A DNA stretch of 22,907 nt. Origin: a virus. The stretch covers positions 1-22,907 of IMG/VR virus record IMGVR_UViG_3300023210_000239; one strand, written 5' to 3'. Below are positions 1 to 22,907 of the stretch, piece after piece (the first letter of the stretch is position 1; every line of letters starts with the position of its first letter). The notes under the pieces are model-generated. The model did not search any database and was not told where the DNA came from. It worked only from the letters and a program-made list of their open reading frames with translations. The translations under genes and the position numbers were made by a program.

Positions 1-494
1 TCCTGCTCACAGACACAGCGTGCCTTGACATCTTCTTCAGTCCATTCTGCCTTGCCCTCCATCCTGTCGTATTGCAGTGTAGTGGGACGCTTGTAAACAA
101 ATCCCGCCTCGAGACCGTACTTCTCAGGGTCGGCGTTGAGCACTTTAAGAAAGGCTGTGACATCGTCGTAGCTCACCGTCTCCACAGGGTGCGTTTCACC
201 CTTGGTGTGGCTAGGATTTTTCCCCATGACCTCCTCGTAAAAGCCCTGCGTCACGGCGAATTTCATTCCCTGTGCAGGATCGTTAGGGATTTGTGCGAAC
301 TCTTTGTAGATGGACATTGCGTCCTCCTTTGATGTGTTGTTGTTGAGCACTGGTTTGGATGTGAAGAATTCTTCCCTCACTAGGCGGAAGCCACAGATGC
401 TGAGCGTGTAGTTCGGGTAGGTGATAGAACGGCGCGCGGACTGCAAGGAATACGCACGGTAGGCCCAATCTCCCCCTCGAAGTATACGATTCAT
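1..494 (-). CDS. FGE-sulfatase/C-type-lectin-fold protein with an N-terminal variable cassette (partial, runs off left edge)
   Basis: The frame is open from an ATG at 494 to the window edge (164 codons). The first 41 residues are a fourth copy of the RGG-W...GFRLVRE cassette. A short linker with an Asn run follows. From the Met at 317 the sequence resembles the N-terminal half of the formylglycine-generating-enzyme (SUMF1/FGE-sulfatase) family: VTQGFYEEVMGKNPS, HPVETVSYDDVTAFLKVLN and YKRPTTLQYDR match the usual VT..QY..VMG.NPS, PVE.VSW.DA..F...LN and YRLPTEAEWE. The start at 494 overlaps the previous stop as ATGA. A strong Shine-Dalgarno site before 317 suggests a second or main start there, giving a normal-looking FGE protein. 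The order is odd, because the cassette normally ends an FGE domain rather than preceding it. In phages such folds often serve as DGR-diversified ligand-binding proteins, so enzyme activity should not be assumed. The C-terminus is outside the window. Confidence 0.8.
   Translation of the reverse strand, partial: MNRILRGGDWAYRAYSLQSARRSITYPNYTLSICGFRLVREEFFTSKPVLNNNTSKEDAMSIYKEFAQIPNDPAQGMKFAVTQGFYEEVMGKNPSHTKGETHPVETVSYDDVTAFLKVLNADPEKYGLEAGFVYKRPTTLQYDRMEGKAEWTEEDVKARCVCEQ
323..330 (-). promoter_or_regulatory. Strong ribosome binding site for internal start at 317
   Basis: On the minus strand AAAGGAGG lies five bases before the ATG at 317. It is the best Shine-Dalgarno match in the left block. 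It supports translation starting directly at the FGE domain, independently of the in-frame cassette upstream. Confidence 0.7.
372..479 (-). repeat. Variable cassette R4 (FGE/C-lectin C-terminal motif)
   Basis: This 36-codon unit starts RGGDW, contains LQSA.R and P.YT, and ends CGFRLVRE. It aligns without gaps to R2 and R3. Differences fall at first and second bases of codons ending in C or T. Its spacing from R3 is 128 nt instead of 132, which puts it in another frame, reached through the ATGA overlap. Confidence 0.85.
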
Positions 495-895
495 ATCTTC
501 TCCCTTGTTAAGCGGAAGCCACAGCCGTCGACCGTGCCGCCCGGGTAGTAGTCAAAACGGTACGCGGACTGCAAGTTGGACGCAAAGTCGTTCCAAGCAC
601 CGCCACGAATGACATAGTCTTTCTTCTTATCCTCCCTCACTAGTCGGAAGCCATAGCTGTAGTACGTGTAGCTCGGGTAGTTGCCATCACGGTGCGCGGA
701 CTGCAAGGCGGGCGCATCGTAGTTCCAAGAACCGCCACGAAGGAAGTAGCGTCGCTTCTCCCTCACCAAGCGGGAGCCGTAGGCACAACTCGCGTTGCTT
801 GAATTGGCGGCGAAATTGTAATAGTCCGCAGCCTGGAAGCAGGACGCAGCGTGGCTCCAAGCACCACCACGGATGATCTTTTCATGCTCACTCAT
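491..895 (-). CDS. Three-cassette FGE/C-type-lectin repeat protein, putative DGR variable protein
   Basis: This 134-residue protein is almost entirely three copies of one motif, at residues 9-46, 53-88 and 97-132, with an exact 44-residue period. Each begins RGG(A/S)W and ends with (G)xRL.RE. This is the terminal segment of the FGE-sulfatase fold, the same segment that serves as the variable region in many diversity-generating retroelement targets. In copies 2 and 3 the variable residues (Y, D, N, S, H, F, G, V, A, P, C) are all ones reachable from AAC or AAT by changing the two adenines. No complete FGE domain is present, so these are orphan cassettes. An AAAAGGAG Shine-Dalgarno site lies just upstream of the ATG. 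The stop overlaps the next start as ATGA, implying translational coupling. Folding and function are unknown; a surface-exposed binding role is inference. Confidence 0.85.
   Translation of the reverse strand: MSEHEKIIRGGAWSHAASCFQAADYYNFAANSSNASCAYGSRLVREKRRYFLRGGSWNYDAPALQSAHRDGNYPSYTYYSYGFRLVREDKKKDYVIRGGAWNDFASNLQSAYRFDYYPGGTVDGCGFRLTREKI
500..607 (-). repeat. Variable cassette R3
   Basis: A 36-codon cassette in the 491-895 gene (residues 97-132). It shares the invariant codons for W, A, LQSA, R, YP, T and GF with R2 and R4. Variable codons between them keep their third base. Confidence 0.85.
632..739 (-). repeat. Variable cassette R2
   Basis: A 36-codon cassette in the 491-895 gene (residues 53-88), 132 nt from R3 and from R1. 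It is rich in Tyr, Ser, Asp and Asn at the variable sites, as expected from NNC or NNT codons. Confidence 0.85.
758..871 (-). repeat. Divergent variable cassette R1
   Basis: A 38-codon cassette at residues 9-46 of the 491-895 gene. It has the same RGG-W start and RLVRE end, but is two codons longer and differs in the framework (FQAA for LQSA, GSRLV for GFRLV). It appears older or derived from a different target or template. Confidence 0.75.
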
Positions 896-942
896 CAGTC
901 TTTCTCCTTTTCCAGTCTTCCTTTAAGCCGTAGCAAATAAGC

Positions 943-5864: not shown

Positions 5865-7424
5865 ATGGGCGACCTTCGCACCCGTGGTGACCTGCTGCAG
5901 TTTATCAACAGCGATATGTTGCGCAAGCAGGGGCCGATATTGAAAACCGAGTATTACTGGAAACAGAGGTTGTTGCTGATGTTGCATCAAAAGTTCCAAT
6001 GTCTCAGGCGGGACTTCCTGCGTCGTCGTTTTGTGGCGACACCGAAGCAGAAAGAGTTGTTCGAGTTGGGCACTTCGTTTCGCCGACGGGCCATCTTTGC
6101 AGGTAACCGCTGCGGTAAGACGGTGGGTGGGTGTGCTGAGTTGGCCTATCACCTGACGGGTCAGTATCCCGACTGGTGGAAGGGGCATCGGTTCAAACGC
6201 CCGATCAAGGCTTGGTGCGCTTCGACCACCCGTGAGAAGACCATCGGTGGTTTGCAGGAGATGCTGATGGGCAAGATGTCTGATCTGGGGACTTCGTTTA
6301 TCCCTTGGGCTCGGATCGGGAATGTGGAAAAGACCCCGAATGTGACGGGTGGTGTGAGCCGAGTGCGAGTGCGGTGTGGCGATATCCACGAAAATCAAGA
6401 GTCAACGCTATCGTTTAAGTCCTACGAACAGGGTCGAAAGGCCTTTGAGACTGAGCGGGTGGACTTTATTTTGCTTGACGAGGAGCCGCCGTACGACATT
6501 TACCGAGAGTGCCAGATGCGCCTCTTGGGTTCGGATAAAGATGCGGGTGGGCTGATGCTGCTCACCTTCACGCCCTTGCAGGGGATGACGAAGGTTTGTT
6601 TGTCGTTCTTAGAGCCCCATGATCACGGGAATCAACAGCTCGAAGGGTACGAGGATGTAGCGTCCCAAACGACCTACATGATGGCCTCGTGGGAAGACAA
6701 CCCCCACCTGTCGAAGGCCGAATTAGCCGAGCTGATCAACGACACCCCTTCGCACGAGCTGGAGGCTCGACGGTTTGGGCGACCCTCGCTCGGCGCAGGC
6801 AAGATCTTCAAAATCCCAGAAGGGCGCATCATGGTGGAGCCCTTCCCGATCCCTGATCATTGGCTTCGGGGGATTGGACTCGATCACGGTTGGGAACACC
6901 CGACGGCTATCGCTGTCTTTGCCCGTGACCCCAACACTGGTGTGTGTTACCTGACGAATGTCTGGAAGCAATCAGAAACACCAATCCCTGAAGTCGCATC
7001 GATTCTTCGAACCTACGGCGGTTCATATGCACCAATTGTAGCCGATCCTTCGGGTCAGGCTTCCCGCCAAGAGGCAGCAGGTCGGTCAACTTTCGATCAG
7101 TACTTCGACGAGGGTATCACGCTTATCGCAGCGAACAATAGCGTTATCTCAGGGATAGAAGACTTTCGGCAGGGCATGATATCGGGGCAATTCAAGGTCT
7201 TTGCGTTTGAGGGCGGAACGGGCCCGTGCGCTGACTTCTTCGAGGAATACCGCCTGTATCGTCGCAACGACAAAGGGAAGGTCGTCAAGGTGCGAGACGA
7301 TGTCATGGATGCTGTGCGTTACGGTTGGCTAGATCGGGATAATTGGATGTCCAGCGACAGAGCCGACACCAAAGCATGGAGGAAAGCTCGCTACTCAGAC
7401 GGCGACGATTGGAAAACGGCTTAA
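5865..7424 (+). CDS. terL: Terminase large subunit (P22-like)
   Basis: DNA-packaging motor that pumps DNA through the portal and cuts it. The 519-residue protein has the ATPase features in order: Walker A AGNRCGKT (79-86), Walker B FILLDEEPP (201-209) with D205/E206, and coupling motif LTFTP (233-237). The RNase-H-like nuclease follows, with acidic residues in GLDHG (D340), VADPSG (D394) and DDVMDAVRYG (D482). Length and motif spacing match full-length large terminases, so it appears intact. GGGGAGG precedes the ATG, which directly follows the previous stop. The portal gene follows after 45 bases. The small subunit is not immediately adjacent, unlike in many phages. Confidence 0.95.
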   Translation: MGDLRTRGDLLQFINSDMLRKQGPILKTEYYWKQRLLLMLHQKFQCLRRDFLRRRFVATPKQKELFELGTSFRRRAIFAGNRCGKTVGGCAELAYHLTGQYPDWWKGHRFKRPIKAWCASTTREKTIGGLQEMLMGKMSDLGTSFIPWARIGNVEKTPNVTGGVSRVRVRCGDIHENQESTLSFKSYEQGRKAFETERVDFILLDEEPPYDIYRECQMRLLGSDKDAGGLMLLTFTPLQGMTKVCLSFLEPHDHGNQQLEGYEDVASQTTYMMASWEDNPHLSKAELAELINDTPSHELEARRFGRPSLGAGKIFKIPEGRIMVEPFPIPDHWLRGIGLDHGWEHPTAIAVFARDPNTGVCYLTNVWKQSETPIPEVASILRTYGGSYAPIVADPSGQASRQEAAGRSTFDQYFDEGITLIAANNSVISGIEDFRQGMISGQFKVFAFEGGTGPCADFFEEYRLYRRNDKGKVVKVRDDVMDAVRYGWLDRDNWMSSDRADTKAWRKARYSDGDDWKTA

Positions 7425-7469: not shown

Positions 7470-9482
7470 ATGCTCGACACACAGCGACCAGATATAGCCA
7501 AGGTTGACCTTTCTTCAAGCAAAGTGAAGGAAAGTTCACGGTTCTATCGGTGGTTCAACGAGGCGAACGCCTACTTCGAAGACAACTACCAACAAGCAGC
7601 TACCGCCTTCGATTATTTCGAGGGTGTTCAGTTCACCGAGGCTGAGATGGAGACGCTCAGGAAGCGGAACCAGCCCCCCACGGTGATGAACAAGGTGCGT
7701 GTTTCTTGCGAGTTGGTGATGGGTATTTACGACAAAACCCGCATGGACTCGACGATGTTGCCACGGGGGAAGGACGAAAACGACTGGGCTACGGCGCAGG
7801 GGTTGACGCACGCTTCCAAGTACATCGAAGACACAAACATGACCCCCCACGACTTTCGTTTGGCGTTTCGAGATCAGCTTATCGCTGGTGTCGGCTGGAT
7901 GGAATCAAGTCTCACCGAAGATCCCACACGAGAAGAGCTTGTTGAGCGTTATGTCGATTGGCGAGAGGTTCGCCAAGACCCGCTGTCGAAGCAGGACGAC
8001 TACGATGACGCTCGCTACCTGTTCCGTGTGAAGTGGATGCACCTCGAAGAGGCGAAAAGCCTTTTCCCCGATCATGCTCAAAGGCTTGAAGAGGCAACTG
8101 GTAAGGATTCCTTACACGCTGGTGCAGGGGCTACTGTTGCGGGCGATGACGACTTTATGTCGGTTCCCGAGATTCGGGAGTCGGGATGGCGTGACAGTGA
8201 CTGGACTGACAGCAAGCAAGACCGTGTGCTGATGCTCGAGTGCTGGTATTACAAGCACGAGCGAGCCTCTTTTATTCGTGACAAGCGCACAGGGCGTGTG
8301 GTCGAATACGACCCCAAAGATGTCAATGATGCCACAGCCGCTCTTCTCCTTGGCGGCACAACTGGCACACTCCCTGTTGAGATCTTAAAGGATCGCCCTG
8401 TGCGCCGATGTCGCCAAGCCCTCCTGCTTGGCCCCCATGTTCTAGAAGACAATCCTAGCCCGTTTCAGCACGGGCGCATCCCCTTCACACCCTTCAGGGG
8501 CTGGAAGAGTTGGCGTGACTGTCGGCCTGTCGGGCTGGTCGAAGTGCTGAAAGACCCGCAGGATGCGGCAAATAAGGCGTTGTCCAAGCTCATCCTCGCC
8601 CTGTCCACCAATCAGGTGATCATGGAAGAGGGGGCGGGCGATGTTGAACTGCTTCGTAAAGAGGCGGCAAAGCCAAACGGGTTCCTGCTCGTTAAGCGCA
8701 ACGCCTTGCGAGAGAATCGATTTAGAATCGAGCGCAACCAAGCTGACGCAGCCTCACATCAGGCTATTTTCGAGATGTTCCATCGTTTATCTTCGGATAT
8801 GGCGGGGGGCCTCGAACTACAGGGGATGCAGTCAAATGCCGCCTCTGGCCGTGCCATTGCTCTTAGGCAGGAGCAGGGCCACACTTCTTTGAGTACGCTG
8901 TTTGAGAATTTCAGGTACTCGAAGAAACGGTTCGTGGAGATGCGCCTCGCCAACATTCAGCACTTCTGGAAAGATGAAAAGTACATTCGAATATCAGAAT
9001 TGGGCGATCCTGATCGACAAGAGTTTATCGTCTTAAACGAGAAGCAGGAAGACGGCACGATCCGAAACGATATTTCTGCCTTGAAGGTGGATGTTGTGAT
9101 TGACGAGCAGGCCGCCCGCACAACCGTGCGCCAAGCCTTCGCAGAGCGTCTGATGGACTTCTTGACCCGTATGCCTGACCCACTTGTTGCGATGAGCATG
9201 ATGGATGTGGTGGTGGATCTTTACGATCTGCCTGATCGCCCTGTTATTAAACAGCGCATCATTCAAGCCCAGCAGATGATGGGCATCCAAGTCCAACAGC
9301 AGATGGAACACGAAGCCGCACTTGAGCAGCAGAAACAGGTAGGGGACACGGCGAAGACGCAAACCGCCCCACCCGCAGATATGGAGGCCAGCCAGTCTAC
9401 TGGCGTAGGCTACGACCCCGCCGTTATGGCTAAGATTCAGGCGGCAGATTCTGCCGCTGGGAATATACAACAAGGCAGATGA
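7470..9482 (+). CDS. Portal protein (P22-like)
   Basis: Forms the dodecameric ring at the capsid vertex through which DNA enters and leaves. The 670-residue length is close to P22-type portals. The N-terminus shows the family pattern FYRWFNEANAYF, FDYFEGVQFT, a basic stretch RKRNQPPTVMNKV and a following long helical segment. The middle includes the wing and crown-type alternating strands and W...SWRDCRPVGL. A Gln-rich helical C-terminus (about 590-630) resembles the barrel extension of P22-like portals. Between terminase and scaffold it is in its canonical place. TAGGTAGG lies a few bases before the ATG, a modest ribosome site. Confidence 0.9.
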   Translation: MLDTQRPDIAKVDLSSSKVKESSRFYRWFNEANAYFEDNYQQAATAFDYFEGVQFTEAEMETLRKRNQPPTVMNKVRVSCELVMGIYDKTRMDSTMLPRGKDENDWATAQGLTHASKYIEDTNMTPHDFRLAFRDQLIAGVGWMESSLTEDPTREELVERYVDWREVRQDPLSKQDDYDDARYLFRVKWMHLEEAKSLFPDHAQRLEEATGKDSLHAGAGATVAGDDDFMSVPEIRESGWRDSDWTDSKQDRVLMLECWYYKHERASFIRDKRTGRVVEYDPKDVNDATAALLLGGTTGTLPVEILKDRPVRRCRQALLLGPHVLEDNPSPFQHGRIPFTPFRGWKSWRDCRPVGLVEVLKDPQDAANKALSKLILALSTNQVIMEEGAGDVELLRKEAAKPNGFLLVKRNALRENRFRIERNQADAASHQAIFEMFHRLSSDMAGGLELQGMQSNAASGRAIALRQEQGHTSLSTLFENFRYSKKRFVEMRLANIQHFWKDEKYIRISELGDPDRQEFIVLNEKQEDGTIRNDISALKVDVVIDEQAARTTVRQAFAERLMDFLTRMPDPLVAMSMMDVVVDLYDLPDRPVIKQRIIQAQQMMGIQVQQQMEHEAALEQQKQVGDTAKTQTAPPADMEASQSTGVGYDPAVMAKIQAADSAAGNIQQGR

Positions 9483-20969: not shown

Positions 20970-21982
20970 TGATTACTTTTTCAGGTGTCTCTGAGGGCAT
21001 CAAGGCGCATCAAGCCGCAGAAGAGCGCAAGCGTCAAGTGGCCCGTCAAGTGAAAGCTGACGAGCGGGCGGTGGCGGTTGCAGAACGGCAAGATATAACA
21101 TTCCAGCAGGGCCAAGAAGATCGAACTACCCGCAAAAAAGAAAAGCAATACACAGCAGCGCAGAACGCTATGGGAATGATTGAGACTTTTGCTGCGAATG
21201 CAGAGACAGGGGAGGCTGTCCGTGTCCCCTACCAGCTTGCGGCCCCCCTATATGACCACCTAGGAGTGGTTTCACAAGACGATCTTTTGGTAACAACAAC
21301 GGCAGACGAGCGGATATACTCCGTAGATAACCGCCCCCTCTTTCGCTTGAACCGAAAAGCGAAAACGATAACAACTACAGAGATAGTGGAAGAAGGTGGG
21401 AAAAGGTGGGAGGTTACGGCTACACAAGCGGTAGACCCAGAGACGGGTACGTCTGTTGGTAAACCTAGTGTAACACAGAAGAAGCAGGTCGTCAAAAAAG
21501 AAACAACCCAAAAAAAGAAACAGTACACCGCCCAACTTAAAAACCGCTTCACAAGCACCAAGCGAACAAAGGCAACGACGGCGCAGGATAGTGGCATTGC
21601 CGCCCTCAAAAAGAAAGTAACCAATCTTGAGGACACACTTGCGGAAATCCCAGTGGGTACAGCTCTTAGTGGCGAGGGATTGAAACTTAAGACGGATACC
21701 GAAAGTGGTCTAGCGGCGGCGCAAGCCGCGCTGAAGAAGCTCGAAGCAAAAAAATCGACAGCCGAGGCCAGCGATGAGAAATACAAGGCGATCAAGCGAA
21801 AAACAGAGGCCCTACTAGAGCAAACCCCTGCCCTAAGTCTGAACGATGCGATTGTTCAAGCCATCATGAGTGCGATTCCAACAGATGGTAGATCGCCGGG
21901 TGAGGTATCACTGACTGCTAAGACATATGCAGATGAGCTTGGAGTGTTAGAGGAACTTAAATCCTTTTTGGGCGAGGAGTAG
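20969..21982 (+). CDS. Coiled-coil protein, putative ejection protein
   Basis: A 337-residue protein, mostly charged and helical. Residues 8-55 are a long Ala/Glu/Lys/Arg/Gln helix. A small beta region follows (about 80-165, with DHLGVVSQDDLLVTTT and TITTTEIVEEGGKRW). A Lys/Thr-rich linker (about 170-205) leads to a second coiled-coil (LKKKVTNLEDTLAEI and AAQAALKKLEAKKSTAE). No enzyme motif is seen. Coupled by TAATG to the previous gene and followed two bases later by another helical protein, it probably belongs to the DNA-ejection set. No family recognised. Confidence 0.7.
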   Translation: MITFSGVSEGIKAHQAAEERKRQVARQVKADERAVAVAERQDITFQQGQEDRTTRKKEKQYTAAQNAMGMIETFAANAETGEAVRVPYQLAAPLYDHLGVVSQDDLLVTTTADERIYSVDNRPLFRLNRKAKTITTTEIVEEGGKRWEVTATQAVDPETGTSVGKPSVTQKKQVVKKETTQKKKQYTAQLKNRFTSTKRTKATTAQDSGIAALKKKVTNLEDTLAEIPVGTALSGEGLKLKTDTESGLAAAQAALKKLEAKKSTAEASDEKYKAIKRKTEALLEQTPALSLNDAIVQAIMSAIPTDGRSPGEVSLTAKTYADELGVLEELKSFLGEE

Positions 21983-21984
21983 CA

Positions 21985-22907
21985 ATGACCTCAGTAGAGA
22001 TTGAACGGCTACGAGCCGAACACTTAAAGCAGAAGAAAGAGCAAGAGGCTCGTGACGAGGCTTCTAAGCGGGTGGCTGTCACAGAAGGTGCGCAAGACAT
22101 CAACGGCCCGACAATCGCCAAAGCAGCTTGGGAAGAGCGGGGAAGCGTGGATGGTGATCAGGGTCAGCCCCCAGTTGATCAACCACAGCCCCCACCAGTT
22201 GAACTACAGCCCCACACGGTAGATGCGTGGAGCGGGAAGACCTCGCAGGAGCTGCTCCAAGAAGGCATCCACGGTGTCCCAGAGGCGGAGACGCTTGACC
22301 AGCAGCCCACTCTGGGCATCATCCCTATCGACCCCGATATGGTGGGCGGGCGTGAGGATGTGAAGTATGACATGGAGACGGGTGGGTTCTTCTATGAAGA
22401 GGTGCAGCTCGACCGTCAAAGCCTAACCGCCTACACAGAGCCTGAGCAGCACACGGTGCGTGTCCCAGTTGAGGTTGGAACATCAGTAGAGAATGCAGAG
22501 TGGCGGCAGAAGATTGCAGGCGCAACGAACATCCAACTTGAGCGTGATCTAGGGCCGCTAACGACCCAGATGCTTCAGTGGCCCGTTTCGCCAAACAAGA
22601 TGTCGCAGGAGGACTTCTATAAAAAGACCGACGGATCATCCCTTGATGCACTAGAATACAACACCCCTGCAAGGCGCAAGACAAGGACTAAGGCGGCGAG
22701 TGTCGCAATGAAGGTGTCTCGGGCTGCCTTTGAGCGGGATCTTCGTAACAACACAGATCTTTCCCCAGAAATGCAGGATAAGGTGTTAGCGTCCGACGGT
22801 GCGCAAAAAACCGTTTTAGACCTGTACGACAACACGATTGCCGACGCTTTAACACAGGGCACTTCAGATCGGCTCAAGATCGGCATCGACATGCGGAACA
22901 CTCTTGT
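21985..22907 (+). CDS. Large helical virion protein, 3' end cut by window (putative ejection protein)
   Basis: Open from an ATG at 21985 to the window edge (307 codons, no stop). GAGGAG lies just before it, close to the previous stop. The N-terminus is a charged helix (IERLRAEHLKQKKEQEARDEASK). A Pro/Gln-rich stretch (about 58-74) follows, then a mixed region, then helical repeats up to the edge (AAFERDLRNN, MQDKVLASDGAQKTVLDLYD). A very long reading frame at the end of the ejection-protein block is usual for podoviruses, where one internal protein may carry a lytic transglycosylase; no such motif is in the visible part. Confidence 0.75.
   Translation, partial: MTSVEIERLRAEHLKQKKEQEARDEASKRVAVTEGAQDINGPTIAKAAWEERGSVDGDQGQPPVDQPQPPPVELQPHTVDAWSGKTSQELLQEGIHGVPEAETLDQQPTLGIIPIDPDMVGGREDVKYDMETGGFFYEEVQLDRQSLTAYTEPEQHTVRVPVEVGTSVENAEWRQKIAGATNIQLERDLGPLTTQMLQWPVSPNKMSQEDFYKKTDGSSLDALEYNTPARRKTRTKAASVAMKVSRAAFERDLRNNTDLSPEMQDKVLASDGAQKTVLDLYDNTIADALTQGTSDRLKIGIDMRNTL

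Follow-up and report, generated by a model that had tools for sequence, protein, structure and literature searches.

Tandem FGE-type variable modules at the start of a phage gene carry a codon pattern typical of diversity-generating retroelements

The window analyzed here is the whole of a 22,907-base IMG/VR virus fragment, which is truncated, with its left end inside an FGE gene. Genes for a terminase large subunit (5865-7424, plus strand) and a P22-like portal (7470-9482, plus strand) place the contig in a tailed phage of podovirus type. A RadC-like JAB-domain protein is also phage-encoded, at 1688-2116 on the minus strand. A repeat search found four copies of a short cassette near the left end, at spacings of 132, 132 and 128 bases: R1 (758-880), R2 (632-748), R3 (500-616) and R4 (372-488), all on the minus strand. 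R1 is a diverged module and R2 to R4 are variable modules, with cores running from a conserved Trp to a conserved Gly at 727-650, 595-518 and 467-390, respectively. R1, R2 and R3 share a single frame in ORF1 (491-895, minus strand; 134 residues), whose frame differs from that of the FGE body. R4 reads in the frame of the body and forms with it ORF2 (3-494, minus strand), made up of R4, the linker EEFFTSKPVLNNNTSKEDA and a partial FGE body that is open at the contig end.

ORF1 starts with the ATG at 895-893, behind the ribosome-binding sequence AAGGAG at 904-909 (minus strand). ORF1 has no FGE body upstream of it, so the array starts the gene. The ORF1 stop, after R3, and the ORF2 start, before R4, overlap in an ATGA at 491-494 on the minus strand, and AAGGGAG at 500-506, inside the tail of R3, is the ribosome-binding sequence for the ORF2 start. 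R1 to R3 would be made as a three-module polypeptide, with translation of R4 and the body restarting at the overlap. The linkers between modules are rich in Lys, Arg and Glu and include purine-rich sequences of ribosome-binding type.

Each cassette encodes about 37 residues running from RGG-W to GFRL, which correspond to the C-terminal variable module of the FGE/C-lectin fold and not to a whole fold. ORF1 residues 48-89 match the C-terminal end (221-264 of 266) of the FGE-type PHROG phrog_18508, and ORF2 residues 86-151 match Pfam FGE-sulfatase (PF03781, E=3.7e-8). A sequence-only reading of this DNA had proposed tandem FGE/lectin-fold cassettes at 372-871. The range was right, and the cassettes are tandem and FGE-type, but they are variable modules alone rather than lectin-fold domains and lie on the N-terminal side of the body. 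As in DGR (diversity-generating retroelement) targets, the variable segment belongs to a C-lectin/FGE scaffold (Pfam, phrog_18508 and FGE alignments). According to PMC7517822, target genes of DGRs have their variable regions close to the 3′ end almost without exception, and in this respect the window departs from the usual plan: R4 is N-terminal to the body, R1 to R3 are further upstream, and the usual C-terminal place is beyond the contig.

In the FGE family the body is followed by GNVWEW and then by RGGSW...GFRL, whereas in the window RGG...GFRL lies upstream of the body. The first part of the body motifs VTQ..W..VMG.NPS..KG...PVE.VS..D aligns in ORF2, and the place of GNVWEW falls beyond the contig end, as does most of the part that would bear the catalytic cysteines of an active FGE. 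Ten viral loci with modules upstream of an FGE body, 1-16 modules each, allow the order to be followed further. The last module is stop-free and in frame with the body in all ten, and in nine of them the body ends without an in-frame C-terminal module, making the protein circularly permuted. In the longest array (L119:1744-3866), 16 FGE variable modules stand in tandem; several are mini-genes that have start and stop codons of their own, and the sixteenth is joined in frame to an FGE body. In the relative L017, residues 47-227 of the module-plus-body protein align on residues 42-239 of PvdO (5hha), and its N-terminal module (3-38) aligns on the C-terminal residues 249-284, that is, in permuted order; this second piece is weak on its own, and the motif order in the FGE alignment agrees with it. 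AlphaFold gave models too poor to use, both for ORF1 and for the permuted module and body of a relative. Since the FGE body of the window is cut off, we infer from the relatives that its protein would likewise be a circularly permuted FGE, with the N-terminal module in place of the usual C-terminal one.

The evidence for retroelement activity comes from a codon-by-codon comparison of R2, R3 and R4 on the minus strand across the 26 codons from Trp to Gly. Fifteen codons differ and 11 are identical, and the third base is constant, as C or T, in 14 of the 15 variable codons, the sole exception being CCC/TCC/TAT; both counts agree with those of the sequence-only reading. By codon position the variable columns number 14/14/1 (hypergeometric P = 5e-6 for so few third-position changes). 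The third bases of the variable codons are 35 C and 10 T, 45 in all, whereas only 53% of codons in the other genes of this phage end in C or T (for 15 codons, P is about 8e-5). The residues Lys, Glu, Gln, Met and Trp are avoided throughout. Synonymous change is seen in none of the 10 degenerate constant codons of the core but in six of the eight conserved codons just outside it (Fisher P = 0.0015). The RGG codons, for example, are CGT GGC GGT in R2 and R3 versus CGA GGG GGA in R4, and the Arg, Leu and Glu codons 3′ of the core also differ synonymously. The absence of synonymous change in the core, set against its presence at the flanks, argues that the copies diverged first and that one common source then overwrote their cores. 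The codon directly before Trp is variable as well (TCT/GCT/GAT).

Mutagenic retrohoming from an AAC/AAT template would leave just this mark, NNC/NNT codons altered at their first two bases only, and within the window the hypermutation reading is well supported. The clean variable copies in the window number only three, and the adenine specificity is deduced from this codon pattern because neither a template nor a reverse transcriptase is seen for the window phage. R1 looks different: its core is longer by two codons, its constant codons differ from those of R2 to R4, and its 3′ end reads GSRL, having lost GFRL. Nevertheless, 21 of 26 R1 codons end in C or T (P = 0.003), and R1 is probably either an old copy or one made from a different template.

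The same pattern separates two sister phages, G002 and G007, which are about 80-95% identical over most of their genomes. In the neighborhood of the array, the 42 codons of the leader and first module are unchanged, and 4 of the 191 codons of the FGE body differ. By contrast, 19 codons differ between the two phages in two orthologous modules, and the 29 base changes fall 15/14/0 across the codon positions. Other pairs give a weaker version of this picture; between L113 and L117, for instance, the flanks are 99-100% identical while 12 of 26 codons differ, 11 of them with a C or T third base unchanged. Of the 12 viral loci recovered with a search pattern of the FGE module in NNY codons, several have modules in tandem. 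Because such a pattern itself favors the signature, loci were then chosen by the FGE body alone. Across the resulting 78 phage loci, 83% of codons in the cassette cores (3,786 codons) end in C or T, while the FGE bodies at these loci reach 54% (16,350 codons).

Positive selection combined with gene conversion among the repeats might be offered instead of a retroelement, as tandem repeats can convert each other, and conversion would at the same time explain why the constant codons stay alike. Selection on the protein, however, has no means of fixing the third base as one pyrimidine in 14 of the 15 codons that change, and it cannot explain the avoidance of the five amino acids. The orthologous modules of the sister phages, with 19 changed codons and no third-base change, tell against it too. 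We consider this explanation highly improbable.

Close relatives of the window phage itself were sought by megablast and blastn against phages, by blastn of the cassettes against plasmids, and by scans of IMG/VR with the terminase and ORF2, all of which returned only unrelated or distant matches. An exact DNA scan for the constant bases of R2 to R4 gave chance matches only, an LQSA-type cassette pattern gave zero matches, and a first tandem-cassette pattern gave zero viral matches; the genome matches to that first pattern were rejected as arrays, being ordinary FGE genes or chance. Several other candidates were set aside. The Manatee Spring phage (MW202622) carries a complete FGE gene of the ordinary kind and, in the stretch examined, lacks an array, and L001 is a short chance match. 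The locus L043 of G016 is a chance pattern match without a cassette, so the reverse transcriptase of that record is not linked to an array. In related phages, multi-module variable arrays recur, an apparently undescribed means of building a variable binding protein.

Long open frames across the cassettes were rejected as proof of function. Hypermutated NNC codons cannot yield a stop in any frame, so that such frames are to be expected. One case is the FGE gene at 21060-22760 of G012 (in L035, G012:20001-33699), where a long frame rich in Ala, Pro, Ser and Thr runs through five out-of-frame modules, NNC being read as NCN.

The source of the diversification was sought in the window and in the relatives. 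There is no reverse transcriptase in the 22.9-kb window, whose end falls within the target gene so that the neighborhood is missing, and no template copy elsewhere in it: the next best match agrees at 28 of 53 constant positions, compared with 34 for R1. An RVT_1 domain was found in none of 65 related records that carry either FGE modules or an FGE body (12 records, G014, G018 and G021, and a further 50; about 6 to 277 kb, most of them fragments), in a search that recovered the BPP-1 enzyme at 9e-19. No Asn-rich template was present among the module matches in nine related records searched whole, and the inferred all-Asn template peptide had zero matches in phages and plasmids. The sequence-only reading had called DGR-type hypermutation. 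The hypermutation itself is borne out by the window codons, the sister phages and the 78 loci; a DGR of the phage's own is not, given the truncated window without enzyme or template and the array-bearing relatives without reverse transcriptase.

The most informative relative is G002. Bases 14-139 of this record are the same as its last 126, and the sister phage G007 spans that junction; G002 is therefore probably complete, at about 65 kb. (The record, which holds loci L028-L031, is filed as linear, 13 extra bases having masked the 126-base end overlap.) G002 has no reverse transcriptase, and a module profile recovers its four modules only, with no Asn-rich template. Its primase has Synechococcus phage S-H1 as the nearest named phage (48%). 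FGE genes on cyanobacterial plasmids make up most of the matches to the module consensus, and the annotated DGR targets closest in module sequence are mostly cyanobacterial. A known DGR, on plasmid pANA02 of Anabaena sp. 90, served as a control: its target ends in the same FGE module, which upholds the earlier identification of RGG-W...GFRL as an FGE variable segment. The Anabaena template reads NNNPENCRSAYRNNNNLDNNNNNIGFR, and 18 of the 22 mismatches between template and variable region lie at template adenines.

Two origins for the enzyme deserve consideration. The phage's own DGR, with reverse transcriptase, Avd and template, could lie just past the left contig end, as it would in a BPP-1-like arrangement. 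The contig does stop within the target gene, and the template and reverse transcriptase come after the target both in Anabaena sp. 90 and in BPP-1. The absence of RVT_1 from all 65 related records, despite recovery of the BPP-1 control, and the probably complete G002 genome lacking both enzyme and template weigh against it, leaving a possibility that we regard as somewhat doubtful. Alternatively, a DGR of the host cell diversifies the array in trans and the phage carries targets only. Remote targets are known for cyanobacterial DGRs (PMC7517822), and this precedent, the lack of a reverse transcriptase in the relatives, the failure to find an Asn-rich template in the nine whole records, the S-H1-like primase and the cyanobacterial module matches together make a host DGR the preferred explanation for the relatives. 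Against it, most of the related records are fragments; we give this origin about an even chance for the window array. If the relatives truly lack a reverse transcriptase, these phages use the diversification machinery of the host for their own binding proteins.

Taken together, we judge, at roughly 80% probability, that R1 to R4 are a tandem module array of one FGE/C-lectin-type binding protein, with R2 to R4 rewritten by retrohoming, the FGE permuted, and the reverse transcriptase either beyond the contig or supplied by the host. The pattern suggests that R2, R3 and R4 were each overwritten fairly recently from one AAC/AAT-rich template. A reverse transcriptase would copy the template RNA and place random bases opposite adenines, and the cDNA would replace each module from about the codon before Trp to GFRL, with R1 remaining as an older copy. 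R4 would then read into the FGE body to give the permuted protein that relatives encode. Enzyme and template would be located past the contig end or else come from the host in trans, as appears to be the case in the relatives. Among the points against this model, besides the small number of clean copies and the lack of a close relative, is that the FGE body proper (3-317, minus strand) has a possible start of its own, ATG at 317, behind the strong ribosome-binding sequence AAAGGAGG at 323-330, which would permit a body without R4.

The extra modules most likely provide further binding surfaces or a store of variants. Recombination between near-identical repeats could bring stored variants next to the body, and module number does differ between the sister phages (four in G002, three in G007). 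It is unlikely, in our view, that R1 to R3 are instead non-functional debris of repeated tandem duplication. R1 has decayed and lost its GFRL end, a lone 37-residue module should not fold, and all three modules are out of frame with the body, as debris might be. On the other hand, ORF1 is open, has a good ribosome-binding site and is coupled to ORF2; R2 and R3 appear to have been overwritten as recently as R4; and multi-module arrays persist in several divergent lineages.

Parts of this arrangement have counterparts in known systems. The cyanobacterial FGE/C-lectin DGRs (Anabaena sp. 90 pANA02; PMC7517822) share the module and the AAC/AAT-type randomization, and, as in the array phages, there are remote targets that lack a reverse transcriptase of their own, which in the cyanobacteria sit in the same genome as the DGR. 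Their variable region, however, is 3′ in a whole C-lectin gene, whereas the window is phage DNA in which bare modules are repeated ahead of the body. Like BPP-1 Mtd, the window protein would be a phage binding protein of C-lectin fold randomized by mutagenic retrohoming, but in BPP-1 the variable region is single and C-terminal, and Avd, the template and the reverse transcriptase lie next to it. DGR 4/5 of Thiohalocapsa PB-PSB1 also has several variable regions, with three tandem C-lectin domains in one target protein, each bearing a variable region and diversified unequally; in the accessible part of that source (PMC10907252) these are whole domains of a bacterial conflict system, with no permutation described, unlike the bare phage modules here. 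Several variable regions occur in 28.6% of surveyed DGRs, 31 of them within one ORF, and the accessible text of the survey (PMC6642488) describes neither arrays of N-terminal modules nor permuted FGE bodies nor modules selected by frameshifting. From these two sources, multi-variable-region targets are known as whole C-lectin domains or as separate genes. A literature search did not find bare tandem modules before a permuted body in phages. What appears to be new is a variable module detached, repeated up to 16 times and set ahead of the body.

A second layout is seen in related genes with an FGE body followed by at least two variable modules. The adjacent module is in the -1 frame in 19 such genes at 18 loci (L073-L077, L079, L080, L084, L085, L087-L089, L095 with two genes, L096, L098, L099, L103 and L144) and in the +1 frame in none. 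These genes are related to each other and do not represent 19 independent events. At the junction of body and module lies an in-phase heptamer: GGGAAAG in 12 genes, AAAAAAG in one (L089) and GGGGGAG in six, the last not a classical slippery site. GGAG or GAGG stands exactly 10 bases upstream of the heptamer in 18 of the 19. GGGAAAG is the slippery site of lambda G-GT, and E. coli dnaX has the A AAA AAG heptamer behind a ribosome-binding-like sequence. A literature search returned no relevant paper joining DGRs with ribosomal frameshifting. The predicted -1 product ends after the first module, and in most genes the predicted 0-frame product runs through the first module in a different frame and stops behind the second one. 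Judged from these features, the 19 genes appear to use programmed -1 frameshifting to choose between two hypervariable C-termini, a layout that would let one gene show two different random surfaces. It is tempting to combine both layouts in one proposal, to which we give slightly less than an even chance: phages without a reverse transcriptase of their own may have their modules randomized by a host DGR in trans and use them either as N-terminal arrays on a permuted body or as C-termini chosen by -1 frameshifting. A 121-kb viral contig (L082:63-6638) carries a further arrangement, about nine tandem FGE genes, most with a variable module of their own.
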